This document shows positions 15,871-64,000 of a DNA stretch of 64,000 nt, piece by piece. Below the pieces are notes generated by a model that did not search any database, had not been told where the DNA came from, and saw nothing but the letters and a program-made list of their open reading frames with translations. The DNA is from Cristatella mucedo. Lineage: Eukaryota > Bryozoa > Phylactolaemata > Cristatellidae. A program made the translations under genes and the position numbers. The stretch is from NCBI GenBank assembly GCA_009760855.2, contig WPIO01000254.1:82501-146500 (forward strand), written 5' to 3'. Each line of letters starts with the position of its first letter. The first letter of the stretch is position 1.

Positions 15871-15872
15871 AT

Positions 15873-22284: not shown

Positions 22285-23717
22285 TAATAATAATATAATA
22301 ATAATATTGCACTTGATAAAGCGCCCTCAGAGAACTTAATCTCTTTATAGGCGCTTTACATTTGCTGCAAAGTGTTACGCAATAGAATAGTAAGTAAAAT
22401 CACGCTTGTAAAACAAACAAAATGAATAACATGGTTAGGGGTTACATGCACTGGGTCAGCATGCAAATGTGGTTAGTGGCAGCATGAACAGTGTCAGCAC
22501 GCATAAGCACATCGAGGACGAATCACAAGGACCCACTAAATGCTGTCCTAAATAGGTATGTTTTTAAGTTTCTTTTAAATGTGGTCAGGTCAGGGGATGT
22601 TCTGATGCAGGTCGGGAGGGAGTTCCGGGCTGTGGGAGCATACGAGCTAAATGCACGGTCTCCAAAGGATTTAAGGTTTGTACGAGGTATTTCTAGACTG
22701 TTGGATTCCGAAAAGCGAGTGGTACGATGCTTTGCCTGATGGGGTAGTATCTCTGAAAGATAGGCTGGAGCCATAGAATGAAGAGACCTAAAAGTGAGCG
22801 ACAAAACCTCGAAGTCAATCCGTTGCTTGACTGGTAACTAGTGCAGGTCGGCGAGAAGTGGAGTAATGTGGCAACTGCGACGCTCGCGACAGACAAGCCT
22901 AGCTGCAGAGTTTTTCACCAGCTGCAATCGCCAAATCGCACATGCTGGTAGGCCAGTAAGCAGTCAGTTGCAGAAGTCGAGACGAGATGTCACGAATGCA
23001 TGGACCAACTTGGACGTGGTATTCTTATCTAAACAAGCCCTAATTTTAGCAATGTTATGAAGCTGAAAATAGGCTGATTTGACTGTGGAGCTGATGTGGT
23101 CGTCTAACGAGAGGTCGCTTTGGAATATGACACCTAGATTTCGAGCTGATGCAACTGGAGATATGCTGGCAGAGCCAATTTTGAAAGTCAGCCTTTCCAA
23201 TTTCTGAATAACACTAGGTTTGCCCATAACTAGTAAGTTAGTTTTATCATCGTTTAGTTTTAGAAAATTTGCTGCCATCCATGATTGGATGTCATCAATG
23301 CATGCAGCAAGTGAGTTGAGAGAATTTGATGTGCTCGAAGGCTGTGAGGGATCAAAGCAAAGGTACAACTGAGTGTCATCCGCATAGAAGTGAAAGCCTA
23401 GATTGTGCTTGGCAATCACATCAGCGAGAGGGAGAGTATAAACGGTGAAAAGGACCGGACCTAGCACAGAGCCCTGAGGTACTCCATATTTTAGAGGTAC
23501 TTCAGATGATCTTTGTCCATTCACGTCAACACTCTGGAGTCTCCCACTGAGATAGGACCTGAACCACTGCAGAGCAGTGTCAGTGATGCCCAGGCGGGAT
23601 GAGAGGCGCTCTAGAAGTACTTTGTGATCGATGGTATCAAAAGCTGCCGAAAGATCGAGCAAAACAAGAAGAGACACTCTACCCATTTCTGCATTCTTAA
23701 GTAGGTCACTATGCGTC
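22285..23717 (-). mobile_element. LINE-A, young copy with intact RT palm
   Basis: The tail, (ATT)n and hairpin are at 22285-22375. The minus-strand frame 22964-23719 is open for 251 codons. It covers the palm from LSAAFDTIDHKVLLERL through YLSGRLQSVDVNGQRSSE and KYGVPQGSVLGPVLF to catalytic FYADDTQLYLC. It continues through WMAANFLKLNDDKTNLLVMG to the SRLDFCN block. A frame change near 22960 separates the C-terminal part (22523-22804). All catalytic residues visible in the palm are standard. The 5' end, including the endonuclease, is truncated at about 23717, so the copy is not autonomous. Confidence 0.92.
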
Positions 23718-23879
23718 ATTTACAAGAGACAAGCTTTGCAACTGAACTCTGAATGACAGTAACCATAAGCAGTTTCGTAGTAAGGCACATCCTAAACAAG
23801 CACCACACATTTTCTCTGGTATTCCGGGGCTCGAAATTATATTTGTGTAAGCAAATTATTTGCCTAACGCTAAAATGTG

Positions 23880-25247: not shown

Positions 25248-27017
25248 ATGAACCAGCTATTTTCGTGGTGCGGGCAGCTGATCGGGCATCTCCCAATCGC
25301 TGGCTGGCTTCGCCATGCCTGCAGTTACTTAAAGCGAGCCGCTAGCAATGTCGGTTGGGACTCAGTCGTTAGTGAAAATGTCATAGCCATGACGAGTGAA
25401 TTGATGGCACGATTGAACACTGACGATTCAGTTTCAGGCATTTAGAACGTGCCAAATCTGGATAGTGGCACCCTCTGGTGTGAAGCCAGCAGCCTTGCTA
25501 TCGGCACTTGCCTGGATATAGAAGGAAGAATCGTCGAGGATGCCTTCTGGCTTCAAAAAGCTCACGACGTAGCCCACATCAATCTTGTTGAGCTGTAAGC
25601 TATCATCAAAGGCCTCAATCTGGCCATTGCTTGGTCATTACGGCAGGTAAATCCTAGCTGATTAAACAGCCTGTTTTTGTATAGCGACAGAAGAGCCTTT
25701 ACGGCTATCACCACCGCTTGCAGTGGTGATACAGAATCACCCAACGCAGGAATTGAACCCGCGACCTCGCGACCGAGGTCGTGAAAAGCAACCGCCATAC
25801 TTACTGTGCCATCACGGCTCAGATGTGGACAATTTCAGCAACTGTTCACGGATGGCTACAGTCACTGCTGGTTGGAGATAAGCCTGTACGAGCCTACGGC
25901 ACGGGAGAGACGCATATCAAATGCAGGCTAGCACTGATGGCCAACACGGTGTCAGAGTGTGGACTTAAGGCTTCCGTAGTCCTGGTGCGATCATCCACCA
26001 ATAAAGCCGATGGGCTGACCCACGTCGCTCAGAAATGGATGAGGGTGAATGTAAGCTGTCTCGCTGTTCCAGAGCTGGCGTCTTTGCCGGCGGTCGGCAT
26101 CGACCTAAAGAGTGTCCACAGCCGTCACCACTTTGGAGTTGACAGGACACTATACCTTGCCATAATGTGCCACCCGAAAGCTACTATCTGGCGAAATGAC
26201 ATCGAAGCCGTCGTGAAGGCTTACCCTCGTTGCAAGTCGATCGATCCTGATCCAGTCGCATGGAGTCCAGGCGTGCTGAATGTAAGCAAGAATTGGCAGC
26301 GCCTGGCCTGTGACGTAACGCATTCCAAGGGCCAAAAACATCTGACCGTGGTAGATTGGGGACAGAGCCGTTTCGCTATTTCGAGGCAAATACTAGACAA
26401 GGGAGAAAACTCTTTGGTGCAAAATCTTGGTGAAATTTTTAGGAAGCGTGGCCCTCCGCAGCAGCTGCTCATGGATAACAGTGAGAGCTTTCGTTTAACA
26501 GCTCTTTGCGGTCTTTATGACCGTTGGGGCGTGGAGCCCAATTACTGTTGCGCCTATAAACCCCCCCCCCCGGCAACGGCATCGTTGAGCGAAATCACAG
26601 GACCATCAAGGGAATGGCGACTAGCACGGGCAAGAACGTCCTGATGATGGTGTAGTGGTCCAACATCTCACCACCAGCAGGGTAGCACGAGAAACCAGTG
26701 CCCTGCAGAAGGCTGTTCACATATGAGTGGAAAAGCCCCCTCTTTGGGGGACAGAAAAATCAGGGCCCGAGGCTCAATATGCGCTCGGCCAGCTAGTATT
26801 TGTGAATCCCACCAACGCTCGTTGCACGACTGAGTGGCCCAAGGGCACGGTAATCAATGAGGGCCAGGGCATGGGAATCAAGATTGAAGGTGTGCATCGC
26901 CACGTGTCCAACTTTGGTCTCGTACAAAGGCAGGAAGAGGGGCTCCCTGCAACTGAAGGCGACAAAGCTGAACCAGTATGGAGGCCTTGGGGCGCGGTGA
27001 CACTACCTCACCGGTAA
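25248..27017 (+). pseudogene. Decayed pol: RNase H and integrase, RT missing
   Basis: 25248-25445 matches the connection region before RNase H. RNase H follows (SGTLWCEASSLAIGTC, then HDVAHINLVEL with a stop). It is split by a SINE-A insertion (25645-25816) and resumes with TVHGWLQ and KADGLTHVAQKWM. Integrase follows: an HH-CC zinc-binding segment (HSRHH ... CPRCKS position, here YPRCKS), core DDE residues ACDVTH and LLMDNSESF, and the ERNH-like end. A poly-C tract at 26560 disrupts it. The integrase C-terminus is at 26727-27017 (KGTVINEGQGMGIKIEGVHR). No protease or reverse transcriptase YxDD is present between gag and 25248, so at least 1 kb of pol is deleted. Confidence 0.75.
25645..25816 (-). 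mobile_element. SINE-A inserted inside RNase H
   Basis: Minus-strand reading starts GCCGTGATGGCACAGTAAGT (box A region), has box B GGTTCAATTCC (complement of 25749-25759) and the GCGGTGGTGATAGCC body. It ends at AGCTAGGATTTACC. The RNase H reading frame is recognisable on both sides (IAWSLRQ before, TVHGWLQSLL after), so this SINE is younger than the LTR element. Confidence 0.88.
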
Positions 27018-45940: not shown

Positions 45941-46389
45941 ACAAGTTTAGTCGTGGAATTTTCCATTATTCATAAAACCCTATTAAAAACACGACTGTTC
46001 TACAAATCAGCACGAGAACGTAAATTAATTTGGTTAGACGAAACGCCCATTCAGAAAGCCTTGCATGATCGTAGCAATTCGACCTTGATCGGAAGTCCCG
46101 GACTCGAATATGTTTCCAATTCTGCATAGCCCACGCCAAGCCTAACCTGCATTCGTTACACAATTAGTAGCCTGTTGACATCATCTCAATCCTAAGGAAT
46201 AAAATAAGTAGCCCAGCTGAGCCAAGAGAGCTTATGACATTATGAGTAGCTTGGAAGCAGATTCTCAGGCGGGCTGATAAGAATAAGCCGTAGTCGGCAG
46301 CAGGAGAAAATATTTAGTGGCCTATTGCATAGCTCAAAGGTTCTAGTGACAGTATGATGCAATACAATACCTTAAACTACAATCTCTTC

Positions 46390-47934
46390 TTTAGTTGCGA
46401 TGGTAATATTGGACCTGCTGAACTCTTATATCGAAACCTCACACCTTGCTAGTAAGTTCCAGTCTGGCTTTAGAGCTAATCACTCCACAGAGTCAGCATT
46501 GCTTCGGGTATACAACGACCTACTTAGGAATGTAGACATGGGTAGAGTGTCTCTTCTTGTTTTGCTCGATCTTTCGGCAGGTTTTGATACCATCGATCAC
46601 AAAGTACTTCTAGAGCGCCTCTCATCTCGCCTGGGCATCCTTGGCACTGCTCTGCAGTGGTTCAGGTCCTATCTCAGTGGAAGACTCCAGAGTGTTGACG
46701 TGAATGGACAAAGATCATCTGAAGTACCTCTAAAATATGGAGTACCTCAGGGCTCTGTGCTAGGTCCGGTTCTTTTCACCGTTTATACTCTCCCTCTCGC
46801 TGATGTGATTGCCAAGCACAATCTAGGCTTTCACTTCTATGCGGATGACACTCAGTTGTACCTTTGCTTTGATCCCTCACAGCCTTCGAGCACCTCAAAT
46901 TCTCTAAACTCACTAGCTGCATGCATTGATGACATCCGCACATGGATGGCAGCGAATTTTCTAAAACTTAACGATGATAAAACTAACTTACTAGTTATGG
47001 CAAACCTAGTGTTATTCAGAAATTGGAAAGGCTGACTTTTAAAATTGGCTCTGCCAGCATATCTCCAGTTGCATCAGCTCGAAATCTAGGTGTAATATTC
47101 CAAAGCGACCTCTCGTTAGACGACCACATCAGCTCCACAGTCAAATCAGCCTATTTTCAGCTTCATAACATTGCTAAAATTAGGGCTTGTTTAGATAAGG
47201 ATACCACGTCCAAGTTGGTCCATGCATTAGTGACATCCCGTCTCGACTTCTGCAACTCACTGCTTACTGGCCTACCAGCATGTGCGATCAGGCGATTGCA
47301 GCTGTTGCACAACTCTGCAGCTAGGCTTGTCTGTCGTGAGCGTTGCAGTTGCCACATTACTCCACTTCTCGCCGACCTGCACTGGCTACCAGTCAAGCAA
47401 CGGATTGACTTCAAGGTTTTGTCGCTCACTTTTAGGTCTCTTCATTCTATGGCTCCAGCCTATCTTTCAGATATACTACCCCATCAGGCAAAGCATCGTA
47501 CCACTCGCTTTTCGGAATCCAACAGTCTAGAAATACCTCGTACAAACCTTAAATCCTTTGGAGACCGTGCATTTAGCTCGTATGCTCCCACAGCCTGGAA
47601 CTCCCTCCCGACCTGCATCAGAACATCCCCTGACCTGACCAAATTTAAAAGAAACTTAAAAACATACCTATTTAGGACAGCATTTAGTGGGTCCTTGTGA
47701 TTCGTCCTCGATGTGCTTATGCGTGCTGACACTGTTCATGCTGCCACTAACCACATTTGCATGCTGACCCAGTGCATGTAACCCCTAACCATGCTTATCA
47801 TTTTGTTTGTTTTTCAAGAATGATTTTACTTACTATTCTATTGCGTATCACTTTGCAGCAAATGTAAAGCGCCTAGAAAGAGATTAAGTTCTCTTAGGGC
47901 GCTTTATCAAGTGCAATATTATTATTATTATTAT
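46390..47934 (+). mobile_element. LINE-A, best plus-strand copy
   Basis: The open frame 46400-47035 covers FQSGFRANHSTESALLRVYN, LLDLSAGFDTIDHKVLLERL, KYGVPQGSVLGPVLF and catalytic FYADDTQLYLC. A one-base deletion in a GGG run near 46999 shifts the frame; the second frame 47023-47700 then runs to the final GSL. 3' UTR, perfect hairpin (47865-47906) and (ATT)n follow. The 5' part with the endonuclease is missing. High similarity to 9131-10460 and 22285-23717 marks the youngest group. Confidence 0.93.
47865..47906 (+). promoter_or_regulatory. LINE-A 3' RNA hairpin
   Basis: The outer stem TAAAGCGCC (47865-47873) pairs perfectly with GGCGCTTTA (47898-47906). The inner stem AGAGA (47879-47883) pairs with TCTCT (47890-47894) around loop TTAAGT. 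The stems are separated by TAGAA and TAG. It recurs in every LINE-A 3' end here. By analogy with CR1/L2-type elements it is probably the RNA signal bound by the reverse transcriptase; that role is inferred. Confidence 0.7.
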
Positions 47935-48065: not shown

Positions 48066-50462
48066 AAATTACCACAAATTACCACATCTTGCTTATTTGA
48101 CCACATGCAGATATCATTTAATCTACAGTGTTTGCCCTCATCCTAGTCTAAAATAAGCTGTGAATCGCGAAACCTCAAGAGCCTTGATATCGATGCTGTC
48201 CGTGCAAAAATACCGGCTTCAGCTCTGCTGCTCAGTCTTCCCTTCGATCTGTCATCATTGGTAGATAGCTACAACACGACGCTAGGTGACACGCTCGATG
48301 ACTTTGCAACTCTGACAAAGTGCACTCTTTGCCCCCGTCCAGACGGCCTAAGGTTTACCTCAGACGTTAAACTACCAGGTCTACTAAACGAAAGCTTGAA
48401 ACGGAATACAAAAGATCCGGACTAACTGCCCATCGACAGGCATATGAAGACTACTGTAGGTCGTATTAATCGATCCTAAGAAAGGCCAATTCTAGCTTCT
48501 ATAAAAACATTGTCGAATCACAGATGCACAATCCAAAAATGCTGATATCGAAAATAAATCATATCCTCAATCGTTTCCAGATTAGCACCTTACCTGACGA
48601 TCCTTGTGATGATCTAGCCGACTCCTTCTCGCGGTTCTATGTGCTGAAGATAGAAAGATCAGAGAATCGATCTCTGCGATGACAACCTCCCCAATAGAAT
48701 CCTCTACCTCGGTTCCAGGCTGCAGCTATATGTCAGCATTTGAGCAAGCTACTAGTGATCTAGTCCGAAAGTTCGTAGCTCGATCAACAAAGACAACAAG
48801 TCATCTGGACCATATTCCCACTGTGCAGCTCCTACGTTGCATTGATCTGCTGCTGCCATGAATAACTGATATCATTAATATGTCATTAGCCTCAGGTCAT
48901 GTCTCAGCACCTTTCAAAAAAGCTGTAGTCACGCCACTTCTCCAGAAAGCGACACTAGACCAAGGGAACTTAAGCAAATACCGCTCAGTCTTCCTTCTGG
49001 CATTCCTATAAAAGACACTAGAACAGGTCGTAGCAGACCAGCTGAACTCATATATTGAAACCTTGCTAATAAGTTCCAGTCTGGCTTTAGAGCTAATCAC
49101 TCCACAGAGTCAGCAATGCTTAGGGTATACAACGACCTACTAAGGAATGCAGACATGTGTAGAGTGTCTCTTCTTGTTTTGCTCCATCTTTCGGCAGCTT
49201 TAGATACCATAGATTACAAAGTTCTTCTAGAGCAGCTCTCATCTCGCCTGGGCATCACTGGCACTGCTCGGCAAAGGTTCAGGTCCTATTGTAGTGTGAG
49301 ACTCCAGAATATTGACGTGAATGCACATAGATCATCTAAAGTACCTCAGAAAAGTGGAGTACCTCAGGGCTCCGTGCTAGGTCGGTTTTTTCATCGTTTA
49401 TGCTCTGCCTCTTGCTGAGGTAATTGCCGATTACAATCTAGGCTTTCACTTCTATGTGAATGACAGTCAGTTGTATCTTCGCTTTAATCACTCCCAGCCT
49501 TCTAGCACCTCAAATTCTCTCAACTCACTTGCTGCATGTATTGACGACATCCGCGCATGGATGGCAGCAAATTTTCTGAAATTAAACCATAATAAACTAA
49601 CTTACTAGTTAATGGCAAACCCATTGTGATTCAGAGATTCGAAGGGCTTACTCTCGAAATTGGCTCTGCCAGCATATCTCCTGTTAAATCAGCTCGAAAC
49701 TTAGGTGTCATATTCCAAAAGCGACCTCTCGTTAGACGTCCATATCAGCTCCACAGTCAAACCTGCCTATTTTCAGCTTCATTGACTTCAAGGTTTTGTC
49801 CCTCACTTTTAGGTCCCATCATTTTACGGCTCTGGCCTATCTTTCACATATACTATCCCATCATGCTAAGCACCGTACTTGCATGTGCGATCAGGCAATT
49901 GCAGCTGGTTCAAAACTCGGCAGCTAGACTTGTCTTCCGTGAGCGTCGCAGTTGCCATATTACTCCACTTCTCGCCAACCTGCACTGGCTACCAGTCAAG
50001 CAACGGATTGACTTCAAGGTTTTGTCGCTCAGTTTTTGGTCCCTTCATTCTATGGCTCCAGCCTATCTTTCAGATATACTGCCCCATCAGGCCAACCATC
50101 GTAACACCCGCTTTTTGGGAATCCAACAGTCTAGAAATACCTTGTAAAAACCTTAAATCCTTTGGAAACCGTGCATTTAGCTCGTATGCTCCCAAAGCCT
50201 GGAACTCCCTCCCGACCTGCGTCAGAACATCCCCTGACCTGACCACATTTAAAAGAAACCTAAAAACGCACCTATTTAGGACAGCATTTAGTGTATCCCT
50301 GTGATTCGTCCTTGATGTGCCTATGCGTGCTGACACTGTGCACGCTGCCGCTCACCACATTTGCATGATGACCCAGTGCATGTCACCCCTAACCATATTA
50401 TTCATTTAGTTTGTTTTTCAAGCATGATTTAACTTACCATTTAATTGCAATTCTTTTTAAGC
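48066..50462 (+). mobile_element. LINE-A, defective subfamily, 3'-truncated
   Basis: It begins at the end of the endonuclease domain (TTACCACATCTTGCTTATTT) and covers the linker, RT and C-terminal region. Defects: TGA at 48859-48861 after RCIDLLLP, YVND at 49453-49464 instead of YADD, and a rearranged block at 49780-49880. The copy ends within the 3' UTR near 50462, lacking hairpin and (ATT)n. The first three defects are shared with 56904-60535. Confidence 0.88.
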
Positions 50463-50781
50463 ACTGTATTTACTCGTGTTTTGTTCCTCAGATTAAGATA
50501 TTGGCCTAGAATTTTTAGGAAACTGCAATATTTTTTATTAAGGGCTGCAGTTGGTTAAGAGCCGTTGGTGAAATTGACAGTGAACCGTATTGGTTGGATT
50601 CGTTTTTGCTGCATTAAACACAACATTAGTTTAGCGAACCCATAATTTTGTCAACTTTTTTTAAAGCCCACCTAACGGTTCATCGTTGTCTTTGAATTAA
50701 GTTTGTGGATTTTTGAATCCCTATGAATTAGCAATAAATTAAGATACTACCATAGGCATGCTGATGTTATGTGCTTTGCAG

Positions 50782-51136
50782 ATGCTTGGTGATTGGCATT
50801 GGTTAGCACGAACCAATCTTCAAGGAAACAGAATTATTGCACAGGCTATCCATCTGGGAACCTTGGTAGATAAGTAATGCATACTCTTTCTTGATTTTAT
50901 TACTCGTACTTTGAAATTGCTATTTGTATGCAGTGTTTTGAAACATATTTTAAGATGGGAGTGGCTGCAAGGTCAATCGTTCGAAAGGCAGTTTGCATAC
51001 CTAAAGGCAGAGGTTATCTGAGGTATTCTTTGACATCAGACAAGTGGACTAAAACATTCAGCTGTCTTCGTCCTCATGCAATTGTTAAAAATGTATATGT
51101 TAAAGAGGAATTGCTGTGCAGATTCATCAAGGAAAG
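50782..51136 (+). CDS. Candidate exons of an unknown host gene
   Basis: A good acceptor (GTGCTTTGCAG) precedes 50782. The following frame reads MLGDWHWLARTNLQGNRIIA up to a donor at 50865 (G|GTAGAT) or 50873 (AA|GTAATG). The next acceptor (TTTGTATGCAG) precedes 50934. With the first donor, frame CFETYFKMGVAARSIVRKAV continues open to a donor-like AAAG|GTAGTC at 51136. With the second, the frame is VLKHILRWEWLQGQSFERQF, open to 51018. The intron would be 60-68 bp, in line with the short introns of the gene at 52003. No domain is recognised, and whether these exons belong to the 52003 gene is unknown. Confidence 0.3.
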
Positions 51137-51140
51137 GTAG

Positions 51141-51930
51141 TCATAAAATATGGCATGATACCTGTGCAGCTAACAAGAGGAAAAGGTACCTATCCTCTTT
51201 AGATGGGCAAGAAGATACTCAGTCAATCAGGTAAAACAGTTCTACCCCTAGCAGGCTCACTGTTCAGACAAGAGACGTGACGAATACTTCCCTTTATTGA
51301 CCAAGTGGCAGTAAACTAAGAAATGATGGTAGCCCAACCCCTATGCTGCACATGGCTGATCTCCAAGTCAACCGGCTTCTCAGAATCATTGAAGCTTCTT
51401 GTGCAAATATAAGCCCGTGCACAAAATGACATGGGTAGTGATCGCTATCCTTGCTGTGGACCAGTAAATTCTGCAATTCCAGTAAGTTTTTTTCCTGAAT
51501 CCCCGTGTGCACGTTGCGAATACTGTTTGCATATTACAAGTGAGCACAGGCAAGCCAAGTGTAGGGCTATCCCAAAGACTATTTGAATGTCTCTGCTGCA
51601 AAAGATTGCTTCTCATTTTGTGCCACATTCAACTGATATGCAAGGTTATAAAGAGCTCAATAGGTAAGTCGTGATTTCTTCGAAAGTTTACCTTTATGTA
51701 AACATCGTAGCATACCTTATGCCACTGGCTTTAAAGTAAATGATTTTGTCCTTAAATTTCTGTAACTTTTCTCTTTTTTTTTTTTTGCCTAGAGGTATCG
51801 TTTACCATTCAAGCCTGAAGTTCACGATTCGTGGTATTTGAATAGCTTTAACTGGTTCAAGCACTCTTAGTATATTTTGAACGAGTTCAGCATACTAGCT
51901 AGATAAGATGATACTATATGACGATCCGGC
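51141..51930. other. No recognisable gene; unique sequence
   Basis: No repeat family of the window is present. Minus frames of 70-80 codons at 51294-51628 are unsupported. This belongs to the low-repeat island 50.5-54.0 kb. Confidence 0.3.
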
Positions 51931-52002
51931 CCCTTAGATGCAGGCCGTGTGCTATCCCAGATTCTCATTCCTCGAGCTATCCTGCTGTTTATTCCAGACA
52001 CA

Positions 52003-52454
52003 ATGAAGTTTCGAGCTGGTGCAGTGCTGCTTTGCCTTTTAATTGGTGCACTGACAGCAGATACACAATCCGTGAGTAAAGGTGCTGCAAGGGTCGATTA
52101 AGTGCATTATGTGCTGATCATTTGACATCCCTGTTTACAGTGGGTATGGTAATACGCTTGCAGGCGGAAATACAGGATGTCCAGCTGAGCAATGAAGAGG
52201 TTCATGAACTCAAGCAAGCTTTTGAAAGTGAGTCTATTCATCAGAAGTCAACTTGGCACACTTCAGTGCAAGGGTGTGCATCCTTAATGACTCCGTAAAA
52301 ACTTTCCTTTACAGATTACACTGCAGCCAAGAGATTACCACTGACTGTGCTTTTTAGAAAATTCATCGACTCGCCACCAACGCCAAAATCAACCACCGGA
52401 ATAGTACGCAAATTACTCAAATTCCGCAAATTTGCAAAGAAATTACGTGGCTGA
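52003..52454 (+). CDS. Secreted cationic peptide precursor, three exons
   Basis: Exons 52003-52071, 52164-52227 and 52315-52454 encode 90 residues; introns are 92 and 87 bp with GTGAGT donors and TTGCAG / TTTACAG acceptors. Residues 1-19 form a signal peptide (MKFRAGAVLLCLLIGALTA). Residues 20-51 are an acidic pro-region, ending in Lys50-Arg51. Residues 52-90 carry 11 Lys/Arg against one Asp: LPLTVLFRKFIDSPPTPKST, then a basic amphipathic C-terminus (GIVRKLLKFRKFAKKLRG). The terminal Gly could donate an amide. This is the layout of antimicrobial or neuropeptide precursors; the function is inferred. Start: the only ATG giving a signal peptide. An upstream ATG at 51938 opens a short overlapping frame. 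Symbol and family unknown to me. Confidence 0.72.
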
Positions 52455-52509
52455 ACTCACGGTACATTTATAACATTTTTGTATAAAGAAGAAACTGAAA
52501 CATGCTGAG

Positions 52510-52515
52510 AATAAA
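52510..52515 (+). terminator. AATAAA poly(A) signal
   Basis: AATAAA lies 56 bases after the stop codon of the 52003-52454 gene and is followed by a T-rich stretch (TTTTTCTTTTTT from about 52533). It supports this strand and this end for the gene. Confidence 0.7.
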
Positions 52516-52519
52516 TGTA

Positions 52520-53984
52520 CTTGCATCTCAAGTTTTTCTTTTTTAATACCCTACAACACTCTACTTTAAAATGCATGGAATCTTTTTCTACTGCCACAGC
52601 GGTAGCAATCTGTGGAAACCGCCAACACAAATGCAGTAAGGTCTTTTATGTTACCTAACCCAAATAAATGAAATTTATGTGATGCTAATATGAAGCACGA
52701 ATCTCACGAAATATTGTTTGACTTCAGAAAGGTCCAATCCTCTAAATTGTTCGACTAACAACAGAAATCAGCACAATAATCACAATGCAAGTCTAATTTA
52801 TAGTGCCGAGATATTTAAAATTCATTTGGTGAGAGCTGAGGCTAACACGTTTCCCTTGACGACCTGCCCTTCGTGATGACAATCGGGAAGAAATAAATTA
52901 TAAATTGTCCGTAATCAGAATAACAATATTCGTTCGATTAAAGTAGCATCACAAATGACAGAAAAGAAGTTAGCATTGATAGGCAAGCTTCCTACTCGAT
53001 CTAGAATGATACCTCTGAGGTTTTTAGAAGCATCCAATCGTTCTTGATATGTGGCCATACTGAATACCATTTTTTGAGGAGCCTTCCTTAATATTCACTC
53101 TTCAAGTTTTCGTTTCAACGTGTACTGTATACTTTTCAAAAAGGACTGCATCCTCGTTAGTTATTTGGACTTGCATCTCAGGGCGAACCACCGAGTTCTC
53201 TTTCCGTTGCACACGATGGACTTCATAGATACCTACACAGAGAAACGTTCTAGATTCCGTTTTACCTTGTTACTTTACAAGAGCCTTGTTTAGGTGCTCG
53301 GAGGTGTTATCGTTGTAATAGCCACGGTATAGTTAAACCACGTGAAGTAATATTTCCTTTCTGTTTTTCTTGTGGGAGTCTTGATCAATTCTTCGATATT
53401 TGGAACGATTGATATAATCCCTGGATTGACATTGTTTACCTTGAAAGTGCCACGATGAATTTCCATCATAAATGTTTCCTTCTGTGGCTTATATGAAGCA
53501 AGTAAATGAATATAACTTAATTAGTGGGTTTTTATGAGCGGATAACAAAGTTTCAGGGCTTTTGCGACCGGCTATTTCAAATTGCTCAGGATCACGTCTA
53601 ATTTTGCGTTGAGGCTGCCCAAATCAACTTCCGTCAGATGAACTGCAGAAAATTCAAGAGAATTGTACTCGTTTGCACAACTAAGTAGTTGGAATGAAAA
53701 GACATTAGTGAATTTGGATTCCTCTTAGTTCCACAATGTAAGCCATTGATACACTTTACGTGTATCAGGAGCCGAACAATGAAAGGTTTAATAAAAAAAA
53801 TTGACGGTCCTTACATAAACCGTTACCATTTTATTTGTCACGTTCGGGTGTCATATTTTGATACTGTAAAATCACCCACAATACTGCTTCTAAAGTTTCT
53901 ACAAAAACAACGGATCTGTCACGCACAGTACGTGCAGTGATTTATTCGAATAGACACTACAATTTCGGTACGCATTTGATATCC
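52520..53984. other. Unique sequence, weak minus-strand coding signal
   Basis: No element homology. On the minus strand, stretches read like protein in one frame between about 53560 and 53102: SKYRRIDQDSHKKNRKEILL, LYRGYYNDNTSEHLNKALVK, then a 56-codon run ending at 53102 with VGIYEVHRVQRKENSVVRPE. Stops separate them. Another frame near 53660 reads EFSAVHLTEVDLGSLNAKLD. It could be a decayed gene or element ORF; I recognise no family. Confidence 0.25.
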
Positions 53985-54114
53985 AACAGGCTCCATATCA
54001 CCCTACGCATAAATTGAGAACCATAGCCGAGTCAGCAGGGTCAGAGACGCAGCTGCACAGGTCGGAAACGCAGCTGCAGAGTCCACAGAAGCAGCTGGAG
54101 CGACGGCGGTTGCC
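53985..54114 (+). repeat. 130-bp copy of the gag-like segment start
   Basis: CCAACAGGCTCCATATCACC and GAAGCAGCTGGAGCGACGGC match 28605-28740 and, inverted, 61620-61770. It lies exactly at the outer edge of the inverted arm that follows. Confidence 0.7.
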
Positions 54115-55030
54115 TCAAAGCTTGTGCACGGCCTGCAAAACCAGAGCCTCGAGCAATTTCAATTTCATTTGCCAGTGGTATCTACCTTCACTTGGTGAGG
54201 GCCGCTTGGACAATCGTACTTCGGACTGTAGGCAGGCCTGCCTGCTTTACACAAGCGATGCTGTCGGATTGACACTGCTTCGGGCTTAAGATATTTTAGC
54301 TTTCTAGGATCAAAAGCCGGGTTCCTGCTTTATCGAAAGCCGGATTCCGACATTCTGATATTCTTTTCAAAGAATCTGAAGTGAGTGGTGGGAGAGCAGC
54401 TCAAAGCTTCAAGCAAAACGTCAAACCTAACAAGGTTATTCCAGTCAGTACTTCCGAGAAATTCGTGTGAGCACTCTGTTGCATATGTATTTACGACATT
54501 CTCAGGAATGCTGACCAGGAGAAAGTCTCCCTGCTAAGTCTTCTGGATTTCTCGGCAGGATTTGATACCTGTTTCCTAGTCTCATTTGAACGTTTTTTTC
54601 CTGGGCGCTCATGGCCAAAAGCTGCGTCCTTATGGCACTGGCTGAGTGGGATTGGTCATATCGTAGAATTCAATGGAAATTGGTAATCTTGTGAGCTATA
54701 GAAATATGCAGTGCCCCAAAGTTATAATTGAGGTCCGTGCTTTTCACGATCAATACTCACCCTTTGCCCACGACTTTATTTCAGCCCATATGACTGTGAG
54801 CTCTATCTTTGCTTTGATTCCGTCATGCCTTTTATTGCTTCAGACTCTTAATTCCAGTACACTCTGCATTAAGATATTTCCACTTACATAGCTGACTTCC
54901 TTAAATTGACTGACGAAATAGGTTTAAAATCAATTGGTAACACCAATCTATTTGTAAGAGGCAAGCTTTGTGCTAAATCTTGACTTTAGGAAGTACAGTT
55001 TCAGCTTGGGCCATAGTTTGAATCAGTTGT
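54115..55030 (+). mobile_element. Third RT fragment, inverted-arm copy
   Basis: Counterpart of 31991-32885. Blocks: CTCAAAGCTTGTGCACGGCC at the start, SLLSLLDFSAGFDTCFL, YAVPQSYN, CELYLCFDSVMPFIA and the FLKLTDEIGLKSIGN region. The order is RT motif A to the region after YxDD; the YxDD itself is lost (CELYLC remains). Decayed. Confidence 0.62.
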
Positions 55031-55039
55031 AATAAGGTC

Positions 55040-56903
55040 CTCATCAAAGATCACGACTCGCTGGTATAATCTATTGACTCCTGGCTTTATAATCTAATTT
55101 AGAGAGAACTTTTCGGAGTTGCTCACTAAACTATTGATGTGTGATAGACCATTACCAATTGCAGGAGACTTCAACATGTTTTTTGACAAACCTAGCAACT
55201 GCCAGGTCGCTCATGTTTTGACTGTTTGGAGAACTGTGGTTTGATCCAAAGGGTAATCATGGTACTCACGTATATGGGTATATCGTGGATCTCGTTATAT
55301 CACTAAGGACGGTCTAGTAAATGGGGCTCGTCTCCTAACGATCCTATTTCCTCCCCTCAGTGGTCCTCACTCCGAGACAATCTTAGTCCAGCTGTAACTA
55401 AGAATTTTTAATTCTTTTCTGGCAAAGAGATTGTACCTAAGTCCTTCAAATAAGCCGTCATTAGACCGATACTTATAAGGTTTGTTTAGATGCAGGAGTC
55501 CTTGCAAACTATCGCCCATTTTCCCTTTTTCTTTTTTGTCAGATTGTTGCAAAATTTTTGCTAAGAAACGTGGTGCACAAAAAAAAAAAAAAAAATTGCT
55601 AGAAACTTTCAGTCGAAGTTCAAGCGGCAGCACTCCACTAAAGCTGCTCACCTCGGTGTCACCGATGACATCCTATCCAGCAAGGATGGCAGGAGTGCCA
55701 CTGTCCTAGCTCTGCTAGATCTATCAGCGGCCTTCGACAACGTTGATCCCGATGTCCTACTTGCACGATTGAGATCAATGGTCGGACTGCTAGACAAGGC
55801 ACTGGCATGGTTCAAATCGTGCTTATCCGATCGCATTCAATTCAAATCGTGTGCAGTCAGGTCTCCTCATCCAGACCAGTCCCCTGTGAGTCCAACAAAG
55901 TTTAGCTTCCGTACTTTTCTGTTCTCCATTAATATACAACATCTGGGAAAAAAAGAGTTAGGTAAACTGAATAGGCTATCACTTATATGCCGACGACACT
56001 CGGCTTCATGTGTCATTAAAATCATTAATTTGCTGCAGTGGCACATAAACTGAATGTTTCCAGCGCAGACATTCGATCATGGATGTCATCAAATTTCCCT
56101 AAACTTAAAGACAATAAAGCAGAACTGCTACTCATAGGAAAACCCAAGCGTGTTGCTGGACTGGAAGACTTTGCCCTTTTAATAGGTGATGCTATCGTGT
56201 GGCCTTCACCGTGTGCTCAGAATTAAGGTGCGATCTTCGACGGCTGCCTAAATTTTGAAAGATTCGCTAAGAAGACTATTTATAGAGCTGCATTACGTAA
56301 CAGCCCTATCTAAGATCAAGATTTTCCTTCCGCGGACGTCTTTCAAAAAAATTAACTAGCTCCCAGGTTCTCTCTTAGCTGGATTGTTGCAAAACGATTT
56401 TTCTTGGTTACCAAAAAATGCATGAGACTGATGCAAAGGGTGACGAAAATACCTTCAAGGCTAGTTTACGAATCCCAGAAGTTAGATCATGTGTCTCTTG
56501 TGCTGAAAGAGCTTGAATTACTGCGGATTGATCAACGGATACAGCACAGAGTTCTTAAGCTGATCCGCATGGCCTGCGACGGCTTGGCCCCTTCATACCT
56601 GGCTGAGCTGCTGAACCAATTTCTGCCTCCATGAGCCCCACAGGCTCTGTGTGGGCAATACATTAGCTGTTCGGTTCCTTCGCTTTAATACCGCTTGAGA
56701 CAGAAGCTTTTGCTCTGTTGGCGGTAAACCGTGAAACTCACTACCACAATTCATATGAAACGAGATCTACTCCAGCTGGCGACTATGACGCATCATTTCC
56801 TGCCGTCTGGAGCTGCTATTTCAATGCTACTCACTACCTTAACTGCTCCCTTGTCGCTTGGTTAACGCACAGCACAGAATCGCCGGCTGATGACCAACAA
56901 CAC
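55040..56903 (+). mobile_element. LINE-B, plus-strand copy
   Basis: The endonuclease remnant has PLPIAGDFNMFFDKPSN near 55160 and THVYGYIVDLVIS near 55270. The RT has ALLDLSAAFDNVDPDVLLAR near 55710, KALAWFKSCLSDRIQFKSC, HLYADDT-like TYMPTTLG (frameshifted, near 55985) and IRSWMSSNFPKLKDNKAELL near 56070. The C-terminal frame 56404-56634 reads KELELLRIDQRIQHRVLKLI. Homology to the minus-strand copy continues to 56903, where LINE-A is inserted. Not functional (several frameshifts, an A17 run at 55578). Confidence 0.75.
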
Positions 56904-59900
56904 TAAAGCTTCATTCCACGCCATTCTCGCCATCTGACATAGAGCGCTCTAACGTGCATTCGTGTTTGTTGCAGAGTTCTTCCGAAAACCGAAGTTCTTG
57001 CTAACATTGTATACGGAAACAAAAACAGCTACGACCTGTTTAACGTTATTCTGATTGTTATTTGACCGTAGCGGGTAAAAAATTAAGTGCCTATGGACAT
57101 CTAAACGCTTACCTCTTCGGGCTGCTGGGTCTCCCACTGCCGGCGGCTCGTAACCTGCTTGTTAGTTACGATCGTCAGCAGCTGTTATCGCTTTGTCATC
57201 GTGGATCAAATGCATTCGTAGATATTAAAGTTGTTGCTAAGAATAATGAACTATGCATTAACAAAAGAAAAGCATCTTGTAGCCGCCAATGCAGTGGCCG
57301 GAACCGCCAACTCAGACGCTGCTCGTTGGGCGGGAACTGCGAGCTGAGTGCACGCTCGTTTGGTATTCCTAGCATTGTCTCGAACGGCTCAGCACGCTCC
57401 CCCACATGCGTCCCCGTTAATCTTTCTAACTGAGTGGTCATCAGGCCTGTTGTAACTTTATCGGCCAGACTTAACGCTTGCCTTTGGAATCCTCGCTCAA
57501 TGTGCAATTAACCTCTAGTAATAAACGACCTTATTTCTGAAAATGGTGTTGACCTGCTCGCCCTAATTGAAACCTGGCTGAAATCGATAAACTGCCTGAC
57601 AATTAAAGACGCCACTCCATCTGGTTTCTCGTTCTTTCACACCCCTAGATCAATCAAATCCGGAGGTGGAGTTGCTATTATTGTGCGCTCAAGATTCAAC
57701 TTCAAGCCATTTGCTGTACCCTCGAAGCAGTCTTTTGAATCAATTGTCTTGGTCTCACCAGTAAACAAGCTACCGATAGTGGCAGTAGTCTATCGCCCAC
57801 CAGGTACCTAATCCTTCTTTTTTAAGATTTCTCCAATCTCATTTCGATTCTGTGTGCAAGAAATCGATCCTTCCTCGTTATGGTTGATATCAACGTTCAC
57901 TTTAAGAACTTATCTGACGCTTTCAGGACCGAATTTCGTACATTGACTGACTCATTGTCTCTTGTGGCTCATGAGCATGGCCCTACCCGCATTAAGGGTA
58001 AAGCCCTCGACCAGATTTTCTCATACAACTGCACTTTGTCATCAAAAATTATTACCACATCCTGCCTATCTGAACACATGCAGATCTCATTCAATATACA
58101 GTGTGTGCCTACATCCTCATCTAAAATAACCTGTGAATCGCGAAACCTCAAGACGCTTGACATCGATGCTGTCCGTGCGAAATTATATGCTTCAGCTCTG
58201 CTGCTCAGTCCTCCCTCTGATATGTCATCATTGATAGATAGCTACAACACGATGCTAGGGGACACGCTCGATGACTTTGCACCTCTGACAAAGCGCACTG
58301 TTTGCCCCCGCCCAGACGGCCTACGGTTTATCACAAACATTAAACTAGCCAGGTGTACTAAAAAAAAAAGCTTGAAACGGAATACAAAAGATACGGACTA
58401 ACTGCCCATCGACAGGCATATGAAGACTACTGTAGGTCATACCAATCGATCCAACAAAGGCTAATTCTAGCTTCCATAGAAACATTGTTGAATCACAGAT
58501 GCACAATCAAAAAATGCTGATATCGAAAATAAACCATATCCTCAACCGTTTCCAGATTAGCACCTTACCTGATGATCCTTGTGATGATCTAGCCGATCAT
58601 TTCTCGCGATTTTTTTGTGCAGAAGATATGAAAAGATCAGGGAATCTATCCCTGCGATGACAACCTCCCCAATAGAATCCTTTTCCGCGGTTCCAGGCTG
58701 CAGCTCAATGTCAGCATTTGAGAAGGCTACTAGTGATCTAGTCCTAAAGTTCATATCTCGATCAAAAAAGAAAACAAGTCCTCTGGACCGTATTCCCGCT
58801 GTCGTGCTCCTACGTTGCATTGATCTGCTGCTGCCATGAATAACTGACATCATTATTATGTCATTAGCCTCAGGACATGTCTCAGCACCTTTAAAAAAAG
58901 CTGTAGTCGCGCCACTTCTCCAGAAAGCGACACTAGACCAAGAGAACTTAAGCAAATACCGTTCAGTCTCCCTTCTGGCATTCCTATCAAAGACACTAGA
59001 ACAGGTCGTAGCAGACCAGCTGAACTCATATATTGAAAACCTTGCTAATAAGTTCCAGTCTGGCTTTAGAGCTAATCACTCCATAGAGTCAGCATTGCTT
59101 AGGGTATACAACGACCTACTAAGGAATGCAGACATGGGTAGAGTGTCTCTTCTTGTTTTGCTCGATCTTTCGGCAGCTTTAGATACCATAGATCACAAAG
59201 TTCTTCTAGAGCACCTCTCATCTCGCCTGGGCATCACTGGCACTGCTCAGCAAAGGTTCAAGTGCTATTGCAGCGTGAGACTCCAGAGTATTGACGTGAA
59301 TGGACAAAGATCATCTAAAGTACCTCAGAAATGTGGAGTACCTTAGGGCTCCGTGCTAGGTTCGGTTCTTTTCATGGTTTATACTCTCCCTCTTGATGAT
59401 GTAATTGCCGATCACAATCTAGGCTGTCTCTTCTATGTGAATGACACTCAGTTGTACCTTTGCTTTGATCACTCCCAGCCTTCGAGCACCTCAAATTCTC
59501 GCAACTCACTTGCTGCATGTATTGGCGACATCCGCGCATGGATGGCAGCAAATTTTCTAAAACTAAACGAAGATAAAAACACTACTTACTAGTTATGGAA
59601 AACCCATTGTGAGTCAGAGGTTGGAAAGGCTGACTCTCTAAATTGGCTCTGTCAGCATATCTCCTGTGAAATCAGCTCGAAACTTAGGTGTCATATTCCA
59701 AAGCGACCTCCCGTTAGACGACCATATTAGCTCCACAGTCAAATCTGCCTATTTCCAGCTTCATTGACTTCAAGGTTTTGTCGCTCACTTTTTAGGTCCC
59801 TTCATTTTACGGCTCTGGCCTATCTCTCAGATATACTACCCCATCATGCCTAGCATCGTACTTGCATGCGCGATCAGGCGATTGCAGCTGGTGCAAAACT

Positions 59901-60535
59901 CAGCAGCTAGACTTGTCTGCCCTGGGCGTCGCAGCTGCCATATTACTCCAGTTCTCGCCGACCTGCACTGGCTACCAGTCAAGTAACGGATTGACTTCAA
60001 GGTTTTGTCGCTCACTTTTAGGTCCCTTCATGCTATGGCGCCAGCCAATGTCACAGATCTACACCCCCCATCAGACGGAGCATCGTACCACCCGTTTTTC
60101 GGAATCCAACAGTCTACAAAAAATACCTCGTAAAAAACCTTAAATCCTTTGGAGACCGTGCACTTAGTTTTTATGCTCCCAAAGCCTGGAACTCTCTTTC
60201 GACCTGTATCAGAAGATGCCCTGACCTGACCACATTTAAAAGGAGCCTAAAAACACACCTATTTAGGACAGCATTTTGTGGGTCCCTGTAATTCGTCCTT
60301 CATGTGCTTATGCGTGCTGACACTGTGCACACTGCCGCTCACCACATTTGCATGCTGACCCAGTGCATGTCACCCCTAACCATATTATTCATTTAATTTG
60401 TTTTTCAAGCATGATTTAACTTACCATTTAATTGCATTTCACTTTACAGCAAATGTAAAGCGCCTAGACAGAGATCAAGTTCTCTGAGGGCCCTTTATCA
60501 AGTGAATTATTATTATTTGTTATTATTATTATTAT
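56904..60535 (+). mobile_element. LINE-A, longest copy with endonuclease
   Basis: 5' region 56904-57430 precedes ORF2 (SCSRQCSGRNRQLRRCSLGG block). The AP-type endonuclease runs about 57470-58140: CLWNPRSM, DLLALIETWLKS, GGGVAIIVR, VAVVYRPPG, GDFN replaced by VDIN, and SDH replaced by SEH. The linker is 58140-58830. The RT (58858-59600) has LLDLSAALDTIDHKVLLEHL and YVND at 59434-59445. C-terminal blocks, 3' UTR, hairpin and (ATT) tail end near 60535. Shared defects with 48066-50462: TGA at 58837-58839, YVND, and the rearranged block 59758-59865. It may be close to full length at the 5' end, since the insertion boundary is at 56904. Confidence 0.9.
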
Positions 60536-60983
60536 CGTACCATCAGCCTTTTGGACTCTAAAAGCCTACAAATACCTCCTACAAACCTTAAATCCTTTGG
60601 AGACCGTGCATTTAGTTCGTTTGCGCCCAAAGCCTGGAACTGCCCCCCCCCCCCCCGACCTGCGTCAGAACATCCCCTGACCTGACCACATTTAAAAGAA
60701 ACCTAAAAACGCACCTATTTAGGACAGCATTTAGTGGGTCCCCTGTGATTCGTCCTTGATGTGCTTATGCGTGCTGACACTGTGCATGCTGCCGCTCACC
60801 ACATTGGCATGCTGACCCAGTGCATGTCACCCCTAACCATATTATTCATTTAGTCGATTTTTAAAGCATGATTTTGCTCACCATTCAATTGCAATTCTTT
60901 TAGCGGCAAATGTAAAGTGCCTAGAAAGAGATCCAGCGCCTTGAGGGTGCTTTAACAATTGCAATATTATTAGTATTATTATT
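60536..60983 (+). mobile_element. Second LINE-A 3' end in tandem
   Basis: Starting right after the previous (ATT) tail, the sequence restarts in the ORF2 C-terminus (near the CCATCAGCCTTTTGGACTCT block). It passes a C run, then the 3' UTR, hairpin and (ATT) tail ending at 60983. The next base continues the inverted arm. Confidence 0.88.
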
Positions 60984-61790
60984 ACGACGCACGGACCAGA
61001 GGGGAGCATTACTCCCTTTGCCCCTCTCTCTCACTCGAGTCCAACTCCTCGACCGTGGCTGCCCACCGGCCTGACCCTATGATGAATGCGACAACTGTTT
61101 ATCAGAGGGTTAGCTGGAGCAATAATACCGGCCAGTTTCAAAGCCACATAAGAGGCAGACCACGGCTGTGCAGCAGCCCGTCCCGGTGTGACATCCATTT
61201 TTTCACACTCGCCTGTCCACATGACACGTCCAATCTCTTAACTGGCCCATCCCGAGGATTCTCCCAATGGCTGTTCACAAGCTGGTTAGCTGAGGACCAG
61301 CCTGTGTCCAGCCACGTCAGACAGAACGTGCGCCAGACCTTAGGATCACGAGTGCCAGAAGCAACACAAGTAACTGCAACATACCAAGCAGCATTGACCC
61401 CTTCTATCCGCTTCAAATGCCACACGACACACCCGGGCGCATTATCGGCGAAACAGCTTATAGTAGAGTATACCAGCCTATAGCGACAACTGACCCCCAT
61501 AGCCAGGCTAAGTACTTTACAGCCTCTCTCTGGAGGCGCGCTGGAGCACGGCCTTTCGCGACCAGTTGGCAAAGTAGGTGACCGGTCATCGTCACCGAGC
61601 TGACATTCACAGCCGCGGGTTTTGCCGATCTCTACCGCCGTCGCTCCAGCTGCTTCTGCGGACTCTGCAGCCGCGTTTCCGACCTGTGCCAAGGCAGCCA
61701 CGTCTTCGACCCTCCTGACTCGGCTATACTTCTCACTTTTATGCGTAGCGTGATATGAAGCCTGTTGGCTATTAAATGGGTACTGAAAAG
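60984..61790 (-). pseudogene. Gag-like ORF and LTR, inverted-arm copy
   Basis: On the minus strand the frame from about 61760 to 61138 (over 187 codons) is open: Ala/Glu-rich start (VGNAAAESAEAAGATAVEIG), Cys-containing middle, then DPKVWRTFCLTWLDTGW and HRDGLLHSRGLPLMW. The same blocks exist, broken, at 28640-29230, so the reading frame is conserved between arms. No zinc knuckle or protease motif is seen; gag-like is an inference. The LTR-like sequence continues to 60984, where LINE-A interrupts it. Confidence 0.45.
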
Positions 61791-62307
61791 TCGCTTAAGC
61801 TGCATGTTGGCAATACGCAGCTCTCCGGCGAATTACTGAGATTTTTTGCGGCTATGCAGACGTACGGACGGAACACACGTAACATTGCATTATATTATGC
61901 CTGAAGTATTCTTCCTCGTTATTAACTCAGTCTGTATGTGTCACTCGGATATACTGGTTATCCTCTTCCACAATATTGGCTCCGTCAGTACCTGCCGAGT
62001 AGCCAAAGTGACCAGGCTCAAGACTGTGCTTAGCGTCATCGGTGGCGGGGGACATCCGTGTACAACAGACTGCCACAAGCGGTTGCGGGTTGGTAACATA
62101 CTATGGCTAGACTGGCAAAATAAGATGCGTGCATGAAATACATAGTAGTACGCGGGAAAGCATGAAGAGACCTAGATTTCCTATCACCGGCTGCGTCCAG
62201 AGTATGTAGACCGGCTTTGGCCGGCCCGGTTTTCGGCTAATAAAGTGCTTGCTGTTGGAGTCGGCGTCACGCGGCATTAGCTGTTGCCTCAGTTTGGGAA
62301 ATAGTTT
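61791..62307 (-). other. Duplicated non-coding block, inverted copy
   Basis: Matches 28094-28600 in reverse orientation (complement of ATATACTGGTTATCCTCTTC, GCCGAGTAGCCAAAGTGACC, CGGCTAATAAAGTGCTTGCT). The 96-codon plus frame at 61846-62136 is not supported. Confidence 0.5.
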
Positions 62308-62470
62308 AAAAATAATAATTAAACTCTCTTTGCTCAGCGCCCTAAGAGAGTTTAAACTCTATTCAGTTGATTCACATTGGCCTCGGGGCTCTAGCCCATC
62401 ACCTCAGCCAGACCTTGGTCTGAGCAAGCATCTTAACCACTGGACCAAACCAGCTCAGTTGGGACCGCAG
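62308..62470 (-). mobile_element. SINE-B copy, inverted-arm
   Basis: Minus-strand head CTGGTTTGGTCCAGTGGTTA, box B-like GGTGATGGGCTAGAGCCCC, tail AGAGTTTAAACTCTCTTAGG. The inner stem here is a perfect palindrome (AGAGTTTAAACTCT), so pairing is kept although bases changed. Confidence 0.87.
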
Positions 62471-62524
62471 GCGCAGCCTCTGGGCTCGTTGGGTCAGCGA
62501 GGTGCATGGCCAGAAGAGAGAAAG

Positions 62525-62923
62525 GTCTGGGTCCAAAAATTGCTTCTACTTAAATGCTACCGCACTGGCGGCACCGCAACGCAAATTGTAGTTTGGTCGC
62601 ACAGCATAGAGCCAGTCAATGCCCAATACCGACAATTTAATCCGTAAGCATGGAGCCCAAGCGCGCACGGCTCCCCTTGGCCCCTACTCTCACACGACTG
62701 TCCCAGTAGCCGGGTCGACTCCGATTATTCATCGACCACAACTATGTACCGGCACACCCTGATGGTGAATCCACCATCTGGTCACCAGCTGGTTACCGGC
62801 CTGTGTCCATGCCACATCACAGGCGGACAACAGCAGTTCACCGGCCCCTCTCGGTGGTGCTTCTAACCGTTGACCGGTGGCTTATCGGAGGAGCCTACAT
62901 GCAATACATACATGCGAACTACA
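62525..62923 (-). mobile_element. LTR of the inverted Gypsy-like element
   Basis: Starts on the minus strand with TGTAGTTCGCATGTATGTAT at 62923, preceded by the purine-rich CTTAAGGTCAAGGGGGCC. It ends near ATTTAAGTAGAAGCAATTTT. It matches 27331-27797 over its length. Confidence 0.82.
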
Positions 62924-63065
62924 GGCCCCCTTGACCTTAAGGTCACAAGTTTGCAGCACCAACACAAGGGGTCACAAGTTTGCCGCAACATCACATGTAG
63001 CTGCAAGGTACAGAGCAGCAATGAGCAAGCCTATTCAGTCAGGACATAGTACCGGTGAGGAAGTG

Positions 63066-64000
63066 TCAAAGTGCGCGTGGGCCGCTGTACTGGTTCGGCT
63101 CTGTCGCCTTCAGGTGCACGGGCGCATCTTCCTGCCCTGGTACGAGACGCAAGTCGGACACATGACGACGCACACCATCAATGTCGATTCCCATGTCCTG
63201 GCCCTCACTTGTTACCGTACCCTCGGGCCACTCGATAGAGTAACGAGCGCCGGCGGACTTCACAAACACTCGCTGGCCGACCGCATGTTGAGCAGATCTT
63301 GGGCCGAGATTTTGCTGTGCCCTGAAGAGGAGGCTTTTCAATTCATAGCAGGACAGCCTTCTGCAGGGCACCGATTCCTCGTGCGACCCTGCTGTTTGCG
63401 AGATGTTGTCCCAATACACCCTCATCAGGACGTTCTTGCCCATGCGAGCCGCCATTCCCATGATGGTCATGTGATTTCGCTCAACGATACCGTTGCCGGA
63501 GGGTTCATAGTCGCAACGGTATATATGCTCCACCCCAACAGTCGCAAAGACTGCGAAGAGCTCTTGAACAAAAGCTCGCTCCGCCCACAATGAGCAGCTG
63601 CTGCGGAGAGCCACGCTCCCATAAATTTCGCCAAGTTTTCGCACCAAAGAGTTTTCTCCCTCATCCTGTATTTGCCATCAAATAGCAAAGCGGCTTGGTC
63701 CACAATCTGCCACGGTCAGATATTTTGGCCCTTGAAATGCGTTACGTCGCAGGCCAGGTGCTGCTAATTCTTGCTTACATTAAGCACGCCTGGACTCCAT
63801 GTGACTGGTGCAGGATTGATTGACTTGCAATGAGGGCAAGCATTCACAACGGCTTCGATGTCCTTTCGCCGGATAGTAGCTTTCGGGTGGCACATTCTGG
63901 CAAGGTACAGTGTCCTATAAGCTCCGAAAAGGTAACGGCTGTGGAAACTCTTTAGGTCGACGCCGACGCCGACGGCCACTGAAGACACCTGCTCTGGAAA
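63066..64000 (-). pseudogene. Integrase part of pol, inverted-arm copy
   Basis: From the window end on the minus strand: zinc-binding part (FHSRYLFGAYRTLYLARMCH, CPHCKSINP with the Cys pair intact) at 63764-63988. A frameshifted core follows with the third catalytic region preserved (EPSGNGIVERNHMTIMGMAA) and the C-terminal part (EWPEGTVTSEGQDMGIDIDG) to a stop at 63066. Frames change near 63760 and 63650. It continues beyond the window. It is better preserved than 26090-27017 in the ERNH region. Confidence 0.75.

Follow-up and report, generated by a model that had tools for sequence, protein, structure and literature searches.

The window analysed here is a stretch of 64,000 nucleotides of the Cristatella mucedo genome (contig C171, positions 82501-146500). 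It carries a gene of three exons, whose spliced open reading frame of 273 nt encodes a precursor of 90 residues, in a region that is present twice on the contig. The features of this locus, in window positions, are the following:

52003-52071, + strand: exon 1, encoding the signal peptide and the first four residues of the pro-piece, with a phase-0 donor GTGAGT; conserved in paralogues
52003-52059, + strand: signal peptide, residues 1-19, part of exon 1
52072-52163, + strand: intron 1, 92 nt, GTGAGT...GCAG; also 92 nt long in the five C592 paralogues L015-L019
52164-52227, + strand: exon 2, acidic pro-piece AEIQDVQLSNEEVHELKQAFE, with a phase-1 donor
52228-52314, + strand: intron 2, 87 nt, GTGAGT...TTTACAG
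52315-52454 (stop included), + strand: exon 3, encoding the end of the pro-piece, the KR site, the mature peptide and the stop
52329-52334, + strand: Lys50-Arg51 codons, predicted convertase site; paralogues align K(R/K) there
52335-52451, + strand: mature peptide of 39 residues, LPLTVLFRKFIDSPPTPKSTTGIVRKLLKFRKFAKKLRG, net charge +10; terminal Gly codon at 52449-52451
52405-52432, + strand: in-frame tandem repeat with a 9-bp unit (3.1 copies) that codes for the RKL-LKF-RKF core
52510-52515, + strand: AATAAA polyadenylation signal, 55 nt past the stop
50457-64000, no strand assigned: inverted segmental duplication relative to about 36.9-50.4 kb of C171, 99.2-99.9% identical in three pieces

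An initial annotation, made from the letters alone, had proposed this three-exon precursor with both GTGAGT donors, the Lys50-Arg51 site preceded by seven Asp/Glu, the 39-residue product with 11 Lys/Arg, one Asp and a final Gly, and the downstream polyadenylation signal, and all of these are present as described. The pro-piece contains one Lys in addition to its seven acidic residues (net -6), and the product, which ends with Gly90, is cysteine-free. At the N-terminus, the hydrophobic core reaches a KD value of 3.5 over 8 residues and a crude test of the core and of positions -3 and -1 classifies it as a signal peptide; in the alignment this signal is conserved among paralogues. Both acceptors, which had been described as pyrimidine-AG, do have their AG, but the tract of the first is weaker than claimed (7 pyrimidines out of 14, against 9 out of 14 for the second). 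An alternative AG at 52139-52140 looks better as first acceptor but gives an in-frame stop. Each of 12 modelled paralogues has a polyadenylation signal of the AATAAA, ATTAAA or AATATA type 54-112 nt past its stop. No paralogue was found within the 64-kb window, where the only two matches were at chance level (E 3.1 and 3.6), and we detected no immune kappaB-type site near the gene, the window as a whole containing 4 of them for 6.2 expected.

The inverted duplication, of which about 13.5 kb lie inside the window and which may continue beyond its end, carries a second intact copy of the gene with an identical coding sequence. Its start adjoins a LINE fragment near 50457. When 3.4 kb around the two copies were compared, we observed no difference between 51779 and 53025. 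The duplication corresponds either to a recent event or to an assembly or haplotype effect.

We searched the genome (572,011,866 bases in 688 contigs) with the window gene as query and obtained at least 23 matching stretches on C171, C42, C592, C450 and C652. Nineteen of them fall in the signal exon, two in exon 2 and two in exon 3, the latter four being the window gene itself and its C171 copy. Three further queries returned at least 49, 37 and 25 stretches, such counts being lower bounds for large families; they extended the family to C26, C361 and, with a broken locus, C122, and gave an additional weak stretch on C56 (E 2.5). Thirty loci (L010-L027 and L032-L043) were then fetched and all modelled; a precursor had to begin with ATG, have a first exon of 69 nt, show phase 1 at its second junction and contain a dibasic K(R/K) site, and a terminal Gly was left optional. 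Since the choice of the exon-2 acceptor in this model is loose, exon-2 borders were taken where possible from a separate modelling of 12 paralogues.

Intact precursors were obtained at 18 of these 30 loci, and the 12 loci with no intact model include L011 and L012, which share the 3' end of the window gene. The intact loci have in common the signal exon, the acidic exon, the dibasic site and then a short peptide; the dibasic site of the relatives had first been seen in raw translations in which it was not required. Although the mature sequences differ, 17 of the 18 intact relatives, one of which is the duplicate of the window gene, keep the terminal Gly. The exception, L021, has KK instead of KR and ends with Lys. 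We also noted a GC donor in intron 1 of L018 and L019. Because several intact loci are near-identical (C450 versus C42, C361 versus C26, L010 versus the window gene), they amount to only 11 distinct mature sequences. Six of these have 18-22 residues, three have 32 and one has 49, and the last is the 39-residue product of the window gene. Ten of the 11 end with Gly. Examples of mature products are:

L015: VFSAIFKLANVIRPLFVG
L016: NFWQNLLKAMKLAGPLLIG
L017: SFWQKAWKAAKFAGSLLLG
L018 and L019: GFVGNILKLAKVVGPLLLG
L024-L027: NFWKTLWKVAKVAAPIAGALLG
L036 and L037: AWYDTLGNIVLDVTGMRQVWNGAKWVYEKVSG

A subfamily on C26 and C361 (L036-L039, L042 and L043, with no intact model for L039) associates the signal and pro exons of the family with a conserved 32-residue product ending with Gly. 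This product carries almost no charge (net 0 in our own count), and the subfamily may have another role.

The synonymous/nonsynonymous comparison that the initial annotation had suggested for relatives was carried out on the paralogues. Between the window gene and five of them, pN/pS in the signal and pro-piece part is 0.34-0.50, indicative of purifying selection; the carrier part is thus constrained and the window gene model is coding. The earlier proposal of a secreted cationic precursor with a KR site and a Gly suitable for amidation is likewise supported by the retention of these elements among the paralogues.

With 39 residues and a net charge of +10, the product of the window gene departs from the six short paralogue products (18-22 residues, net +2 to +4); neither this atypical length nor the family itself had been seen at the outset. 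AlphaFold2, run without alignment, predicted helices at product residues 3-12 and 20-37 (mean pLDDT 78.2, pTM 0.34), between which the Pro-rich stretch SPPTPKS would act as a hinge. The tail, initially described as able to form a basic amphipathic helix, is indeed basic, but the amphipathicity of its last 17 residues before Gly is only moderate, being reached by 5.8-20.6% of shuffles (20.6% of composition shuffles for the helical moment at 100 degrees, 5.8-7.6% at the best angle). For the short paralogue products, amphipathicity was measured on the N-terminal portion of the helix, ending at Pro; it exceeds all but 1.1-2.8% of shuffles in four of six cases, and in the remaining two 6.9% and 10.7% of shuffles reach it. 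Among relatives with short helices, the window member thus has a longer and far more cationic product, to which the 9-bp in-frame triplication can add. Comparison of the sequences is suggestive at most of a stop-loss by which a former 3' UTR became part of this long product.

No Pfam family matched the window precursor at E<=10. Eight family members searched at E<=1 gave seven Pfam families, all with chance-level scores (best 0.024) and none of them an antimicrobial peptide family; such families with Pfam models include frog skin preprodermaseptin, cecropins, cathelicidins and pleurocidins. In the PDB, only chance-level matches were returned (best E 0.46, 1.7 and 1.5). The mature peptide had not been recognised as a member of a named family, and these searches agree with it. 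We had considered an EF-hand or another known domain in the pro-piece, since VQLSNEEVHELKQAFE presumably resembles calmodulin-type helices, and rejected it in view of the same Pfam and PDB results. No relative was found among viral contigs and prokaryote genomes, and the 12 short peptide strings that we searched are absent from the open-licence papers covered. The family of small secreted peptides found here in the genome of Cristatella mucedo, of antimicrobial type, is apparently undescribed.

The plan of the precursor has counterparts in other animals. Frog skin precursors of the dermaseptin/phylloseptin type consist of a signal, an acidic pro-piece ending with KR and an amidated helical peptide, and their mature region is hypervariable. 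The window precursor shares this plan, at least in outline; unlike them, it lacks a Pfam match at the threshold given above, and the COX1 frame of the probable mitochondrial contig of this assembly is closed under the vertebrate code. BjAMP1 of amphioxus is described as a 97-residue precursor with a signal, an anionic region, a dibasic site and a cationic C-terminal amphipathic helix that is antibacterial, the mature form (mBjAMP1) being reported as bactericidal (PMC4683396). The window precursor has its parts in the same order, from the signal over the anionic region and the dibasic site to the cationic peptide at the C-terminus, but BjAMP1 has RR at 75-76 and a 21-residue product with two Cys (PMC4683396). 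When mBjAMP1 was compared with the mature part of the window precursor, the best local alignment was reached by 103 of 1000 shuffles, so that the similarity is not convincing.

Arminins and other Hydra antimicrobial peptide families resemble the window family by a bipartite charge, lineage-confined multigene clusters and a helical C-terminal product (arminin 1a-C); they are stated to be confined to Hydra, which sets the window family apart (PMC10945409, PMC11767717). The linear cationic helical peptides of Ciona have like the window gene 50-100-residue precursors, cysteine-free after the signal, with conserved signals and short cationic helices; unlike in the window gene, their anionic region lies C-terminal to the cationic one, and motifs for basic processing were reportedly not found in them (PMC7387483). 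A similarity to Ciona peptides was judged not convincing: the match to KH.S921.1, one of 8 comparisons, was reached by 7 of 1000 shuffles and both sequences are of low complexity. Mussel myticalins are also linear cationic peptides of a multigene group with a conserved signal, a KR site and a hypervariable mature part, and amidation is predicted for many of them as for the window family, but their acidic propeptide is C-terminal and a single exon encodes the signal and the mature part (PMC5577615). In the window precursor the acidic piece precedes the product, which places it outside the myticalins.

How firmly does the gene itself stand? Initially there was only a model drawn from raw sequence, and a chance assembly of an open reading frame and splice motifs was a possible explanation. 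A scan for gene models with a signal peptide, one or two introns, a dibasic site, an acidic pro-piece and a cationic product, then with a polyadenylation signal, a terminal Gly and a stronger charge, found in the real window only the gene at 52003-52454, in two splice variants, which passes the peptide levels and reaches the top one. Order-2 simulated windows reached levels 2 to 5 in 15, 2, 0 and 0 cases out of 10,322, and in 304, 34, 2 and 0 out of 8,140 with relaxed donors, the first figure of each series giving the rate of models of this general kind; in first-order simulations the basic level was reached in 0/100 and 4/3,713 and the level with Gly in 1/3,713. Since the scan criteria were written with the gene model in view, these counts are a guide and not a formal test. 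Independent confirmation was provided by the paralogues elsewhere in the genome, which share the exon layout and the peptide plan. Chance is already contradicted by paralogues that retain layout and reading frames on several contigs, and by purifying selection on the signal and pro-piece, and we consider it next to impossible; the predicted gene looks real, and this is confirmed. The family could also be real while its window member is decaying or recently altered, with a 39-residue product that is unused. The C42 relatives L011, L012 and L014, in which parts of the window gene recur, are broken, and the mature segment of the window gene aligns poorly with the 18-22-residue products and contains the 9-bp triplication. 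Against such decay, the frame, the splice signals, the AATAAA and the terminal Gly are all intact, the coding sequence is the same in both copies of a duplication that is 99.2-99.9% identical, and the carrier part has the low pN/pS reported above; we regard this alternative as rather unlikely.

For the function, we favour, with a probability of roughly three in four, a lineage-specific multigene family of linear amidated antimicrobial-type peptides, with a cysteine-free product that would be released by a convertase and act on membranes. The choice between antimicrobial peptide and neuropeptide had been left open in the initial annotation; the antimicrobial type is favoured by the multigene clusters, the broken copies, and signal and pro exons that are conserved next to a variable mature one. 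Once transcribed, as is presumably the case, the precursor would be routed into the secretory pathway by the signal of exon 1, and the acidic pro-piece (net -6) would balance the positive charge of the tail (net +10) up to cleavage by a proprotein convertase on the C-terminal side of Lys50-Arg51. Peptidylglycine alpha-amidating monooxygenase would then convert the C-terminal Gly into an amide, and the freed peptide would form amphipathic helices at membranes and disrupt microbial ones. The moderate amphipathicity of the window tail, the weak first acceptor and the nearly neutral, constrained product of the C26 subfamily speak against it, as do the 12 loci with no intact model, the KK site and missing final Gly of L021, the GC donors of L018 and L019, and the paralogue pairs in which change is not concentrated in the mature part (L018/L019) or extends to the flanks (L022/L024). 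Cleavage at KR and a terminal Gly are standard neuropeptide grammar, so a family of neuropeptides or peptide hormones, whose KR-cleaved amidated product signals via a receptor, would fit these two elements as well, and the conserved and nearly uncharged C26 subfamily also. A hormone role agrees less well with mature sequences that diverge strongly in one genome next to a conserved signal and pro-piece. Broken copies in gene clusters and a high net charge, both seen in this family, are untypical of hormones, and we find this explanation quite improbable. An offensive secretion, that is, a venom or mucus peptide family built on the same precursor plan, seems improbable too: venom peptide families do have a conserved signal/pro part and a hypervariable mature exon, a pattern that the window family matches, but short amidated amphipathic helices are just as typical of immune peptides. 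A single guess from raw sequence has led to a peptide family that is apparently undescribed and has members open to direct synthesis and testing.

Diversification of the mature part was examined in pairs of close paralogues (12 and 5 pairs, not mutually independent). In the C592 pair L016/L017, 10 of 60 sites of the mature segment differ, all 10 changes being nonsynonymous and none synonymous (44.5 and 12.5 sites), for only 5 differences in 1,126 sites outside it (500 bp upstream, exons 1 and 2, introns, the pro part of exon 3 and 300 bp downstream; Fisher 1.3e-10). For L022/L024, the mature segment has 7 differences in 69 sites, and the introns together with the remaining exon parts have 3 in 335 (p 0.00025); the flanks of this pair differ too (22/499 upstream, 12/299 downstream). 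In L018/L019 the mature segment is not enriched in differences (1 of 60 sites). In the C26 subfamily, three pairs have Nd values of 3-8.5 over about 75 mature sites and Sd values of 3-6.5 over about 20, two further pairs have an identical mature part, and pN is lower than pS in the mature part of the clade, which is hence constrained. Positive selection throughout the family was rejected because it is absent from the C26 subfamily and L018/L019.

We also considered gene conversion as the source of the L016/L017 difference, with another present-day paralogue donating the mature part. Among the best candidates scored in the genome, the next best match to the mature exon of L017 is L016 itself (62%), so no donor was seen. 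The flanks may nevertheless have been homogenised by conversion, and selection on the mature part together with homogenised flanks would be the simplest reading of the pattern in these sequences. A bolder proposal, which we hold to be doubtful, is that a focused mechanism diversifies the mature part of exon 3, about 60 bp changing nearly 40-fold faster in L016/L017 while flanking exons, introns and upstream sequence are kept or made identical; within such a system, the window gene would encode a novel product of double length with two helices. Conopeptide genes display a comparable diversification focused on the mature part. The L016/L017 pair is in any case a sharp natural example of change limited to the active peptide, and it raises the question of whether the hypervariability of antimicrobial peptides is due to selection by itself or to selection combined with flank conversion.

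The window, with a GC content of about 45% and an observed/expected CpG ratio of 0.72, also contains mobile-element fragments, for which the clade name L2/CR1-like is our own judgement:

22967-23719, - strand: L2/CR1-like LINE reverse-transcriptase fragment, Pfam RVT_1
46376-47700, + strand: L2/CR1-like LINE reverse-transcriptase fragment, 96.7% identical to 22290-23707 over 1.4 kb
55565-56050, + strand: L2/CR1-like LINE reverse-transcriptase fragment, Pfam RVT_1, below the curated cut-off
58840-59343, + strand: L2/CR1-like LINE reverse-transcriptase fragment, Pfam RVT_1
25757-26641, + strand: LTR-type element, integrase fragment (rve at E 8.5e-6, which misses the Pfam cut-off)

At 15343-15871, a CACACGGG/CACACGCA tandem array leaves several frames open; it is repeat DNA and contains no genes. 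A LINE reverse transcriptase 55% identical to that of the window was found on PIVJ01000154.1, a contig filed as a Bacteroidetes metagenome-assembled genome, which is probably animal DNA in a bacterial bin.

The probable mitochondrial contig of the assembly, C688, has 21,008 bases and a COX1 frame that contains TGA. AGR codons break this frame under the vertebrate code and it is open under the invertebrate one; compared with what we take to be the COX1 consensus, AGR stands at Ser, ATA at Met and AAA at Lys positions, which argues against an ascidian or an echinoderm; our impression was of a lophotrochozoan. Further stretches that resemble COX1 and contain TGA in frame, and for some of them TAA or TAG, occur outside C688 (C166:4375626-4376390, C83:2826-3735, C549:2641741-2642010 and C299:634220-634540) and are probable nuclear copies of mitochondrial DNA.
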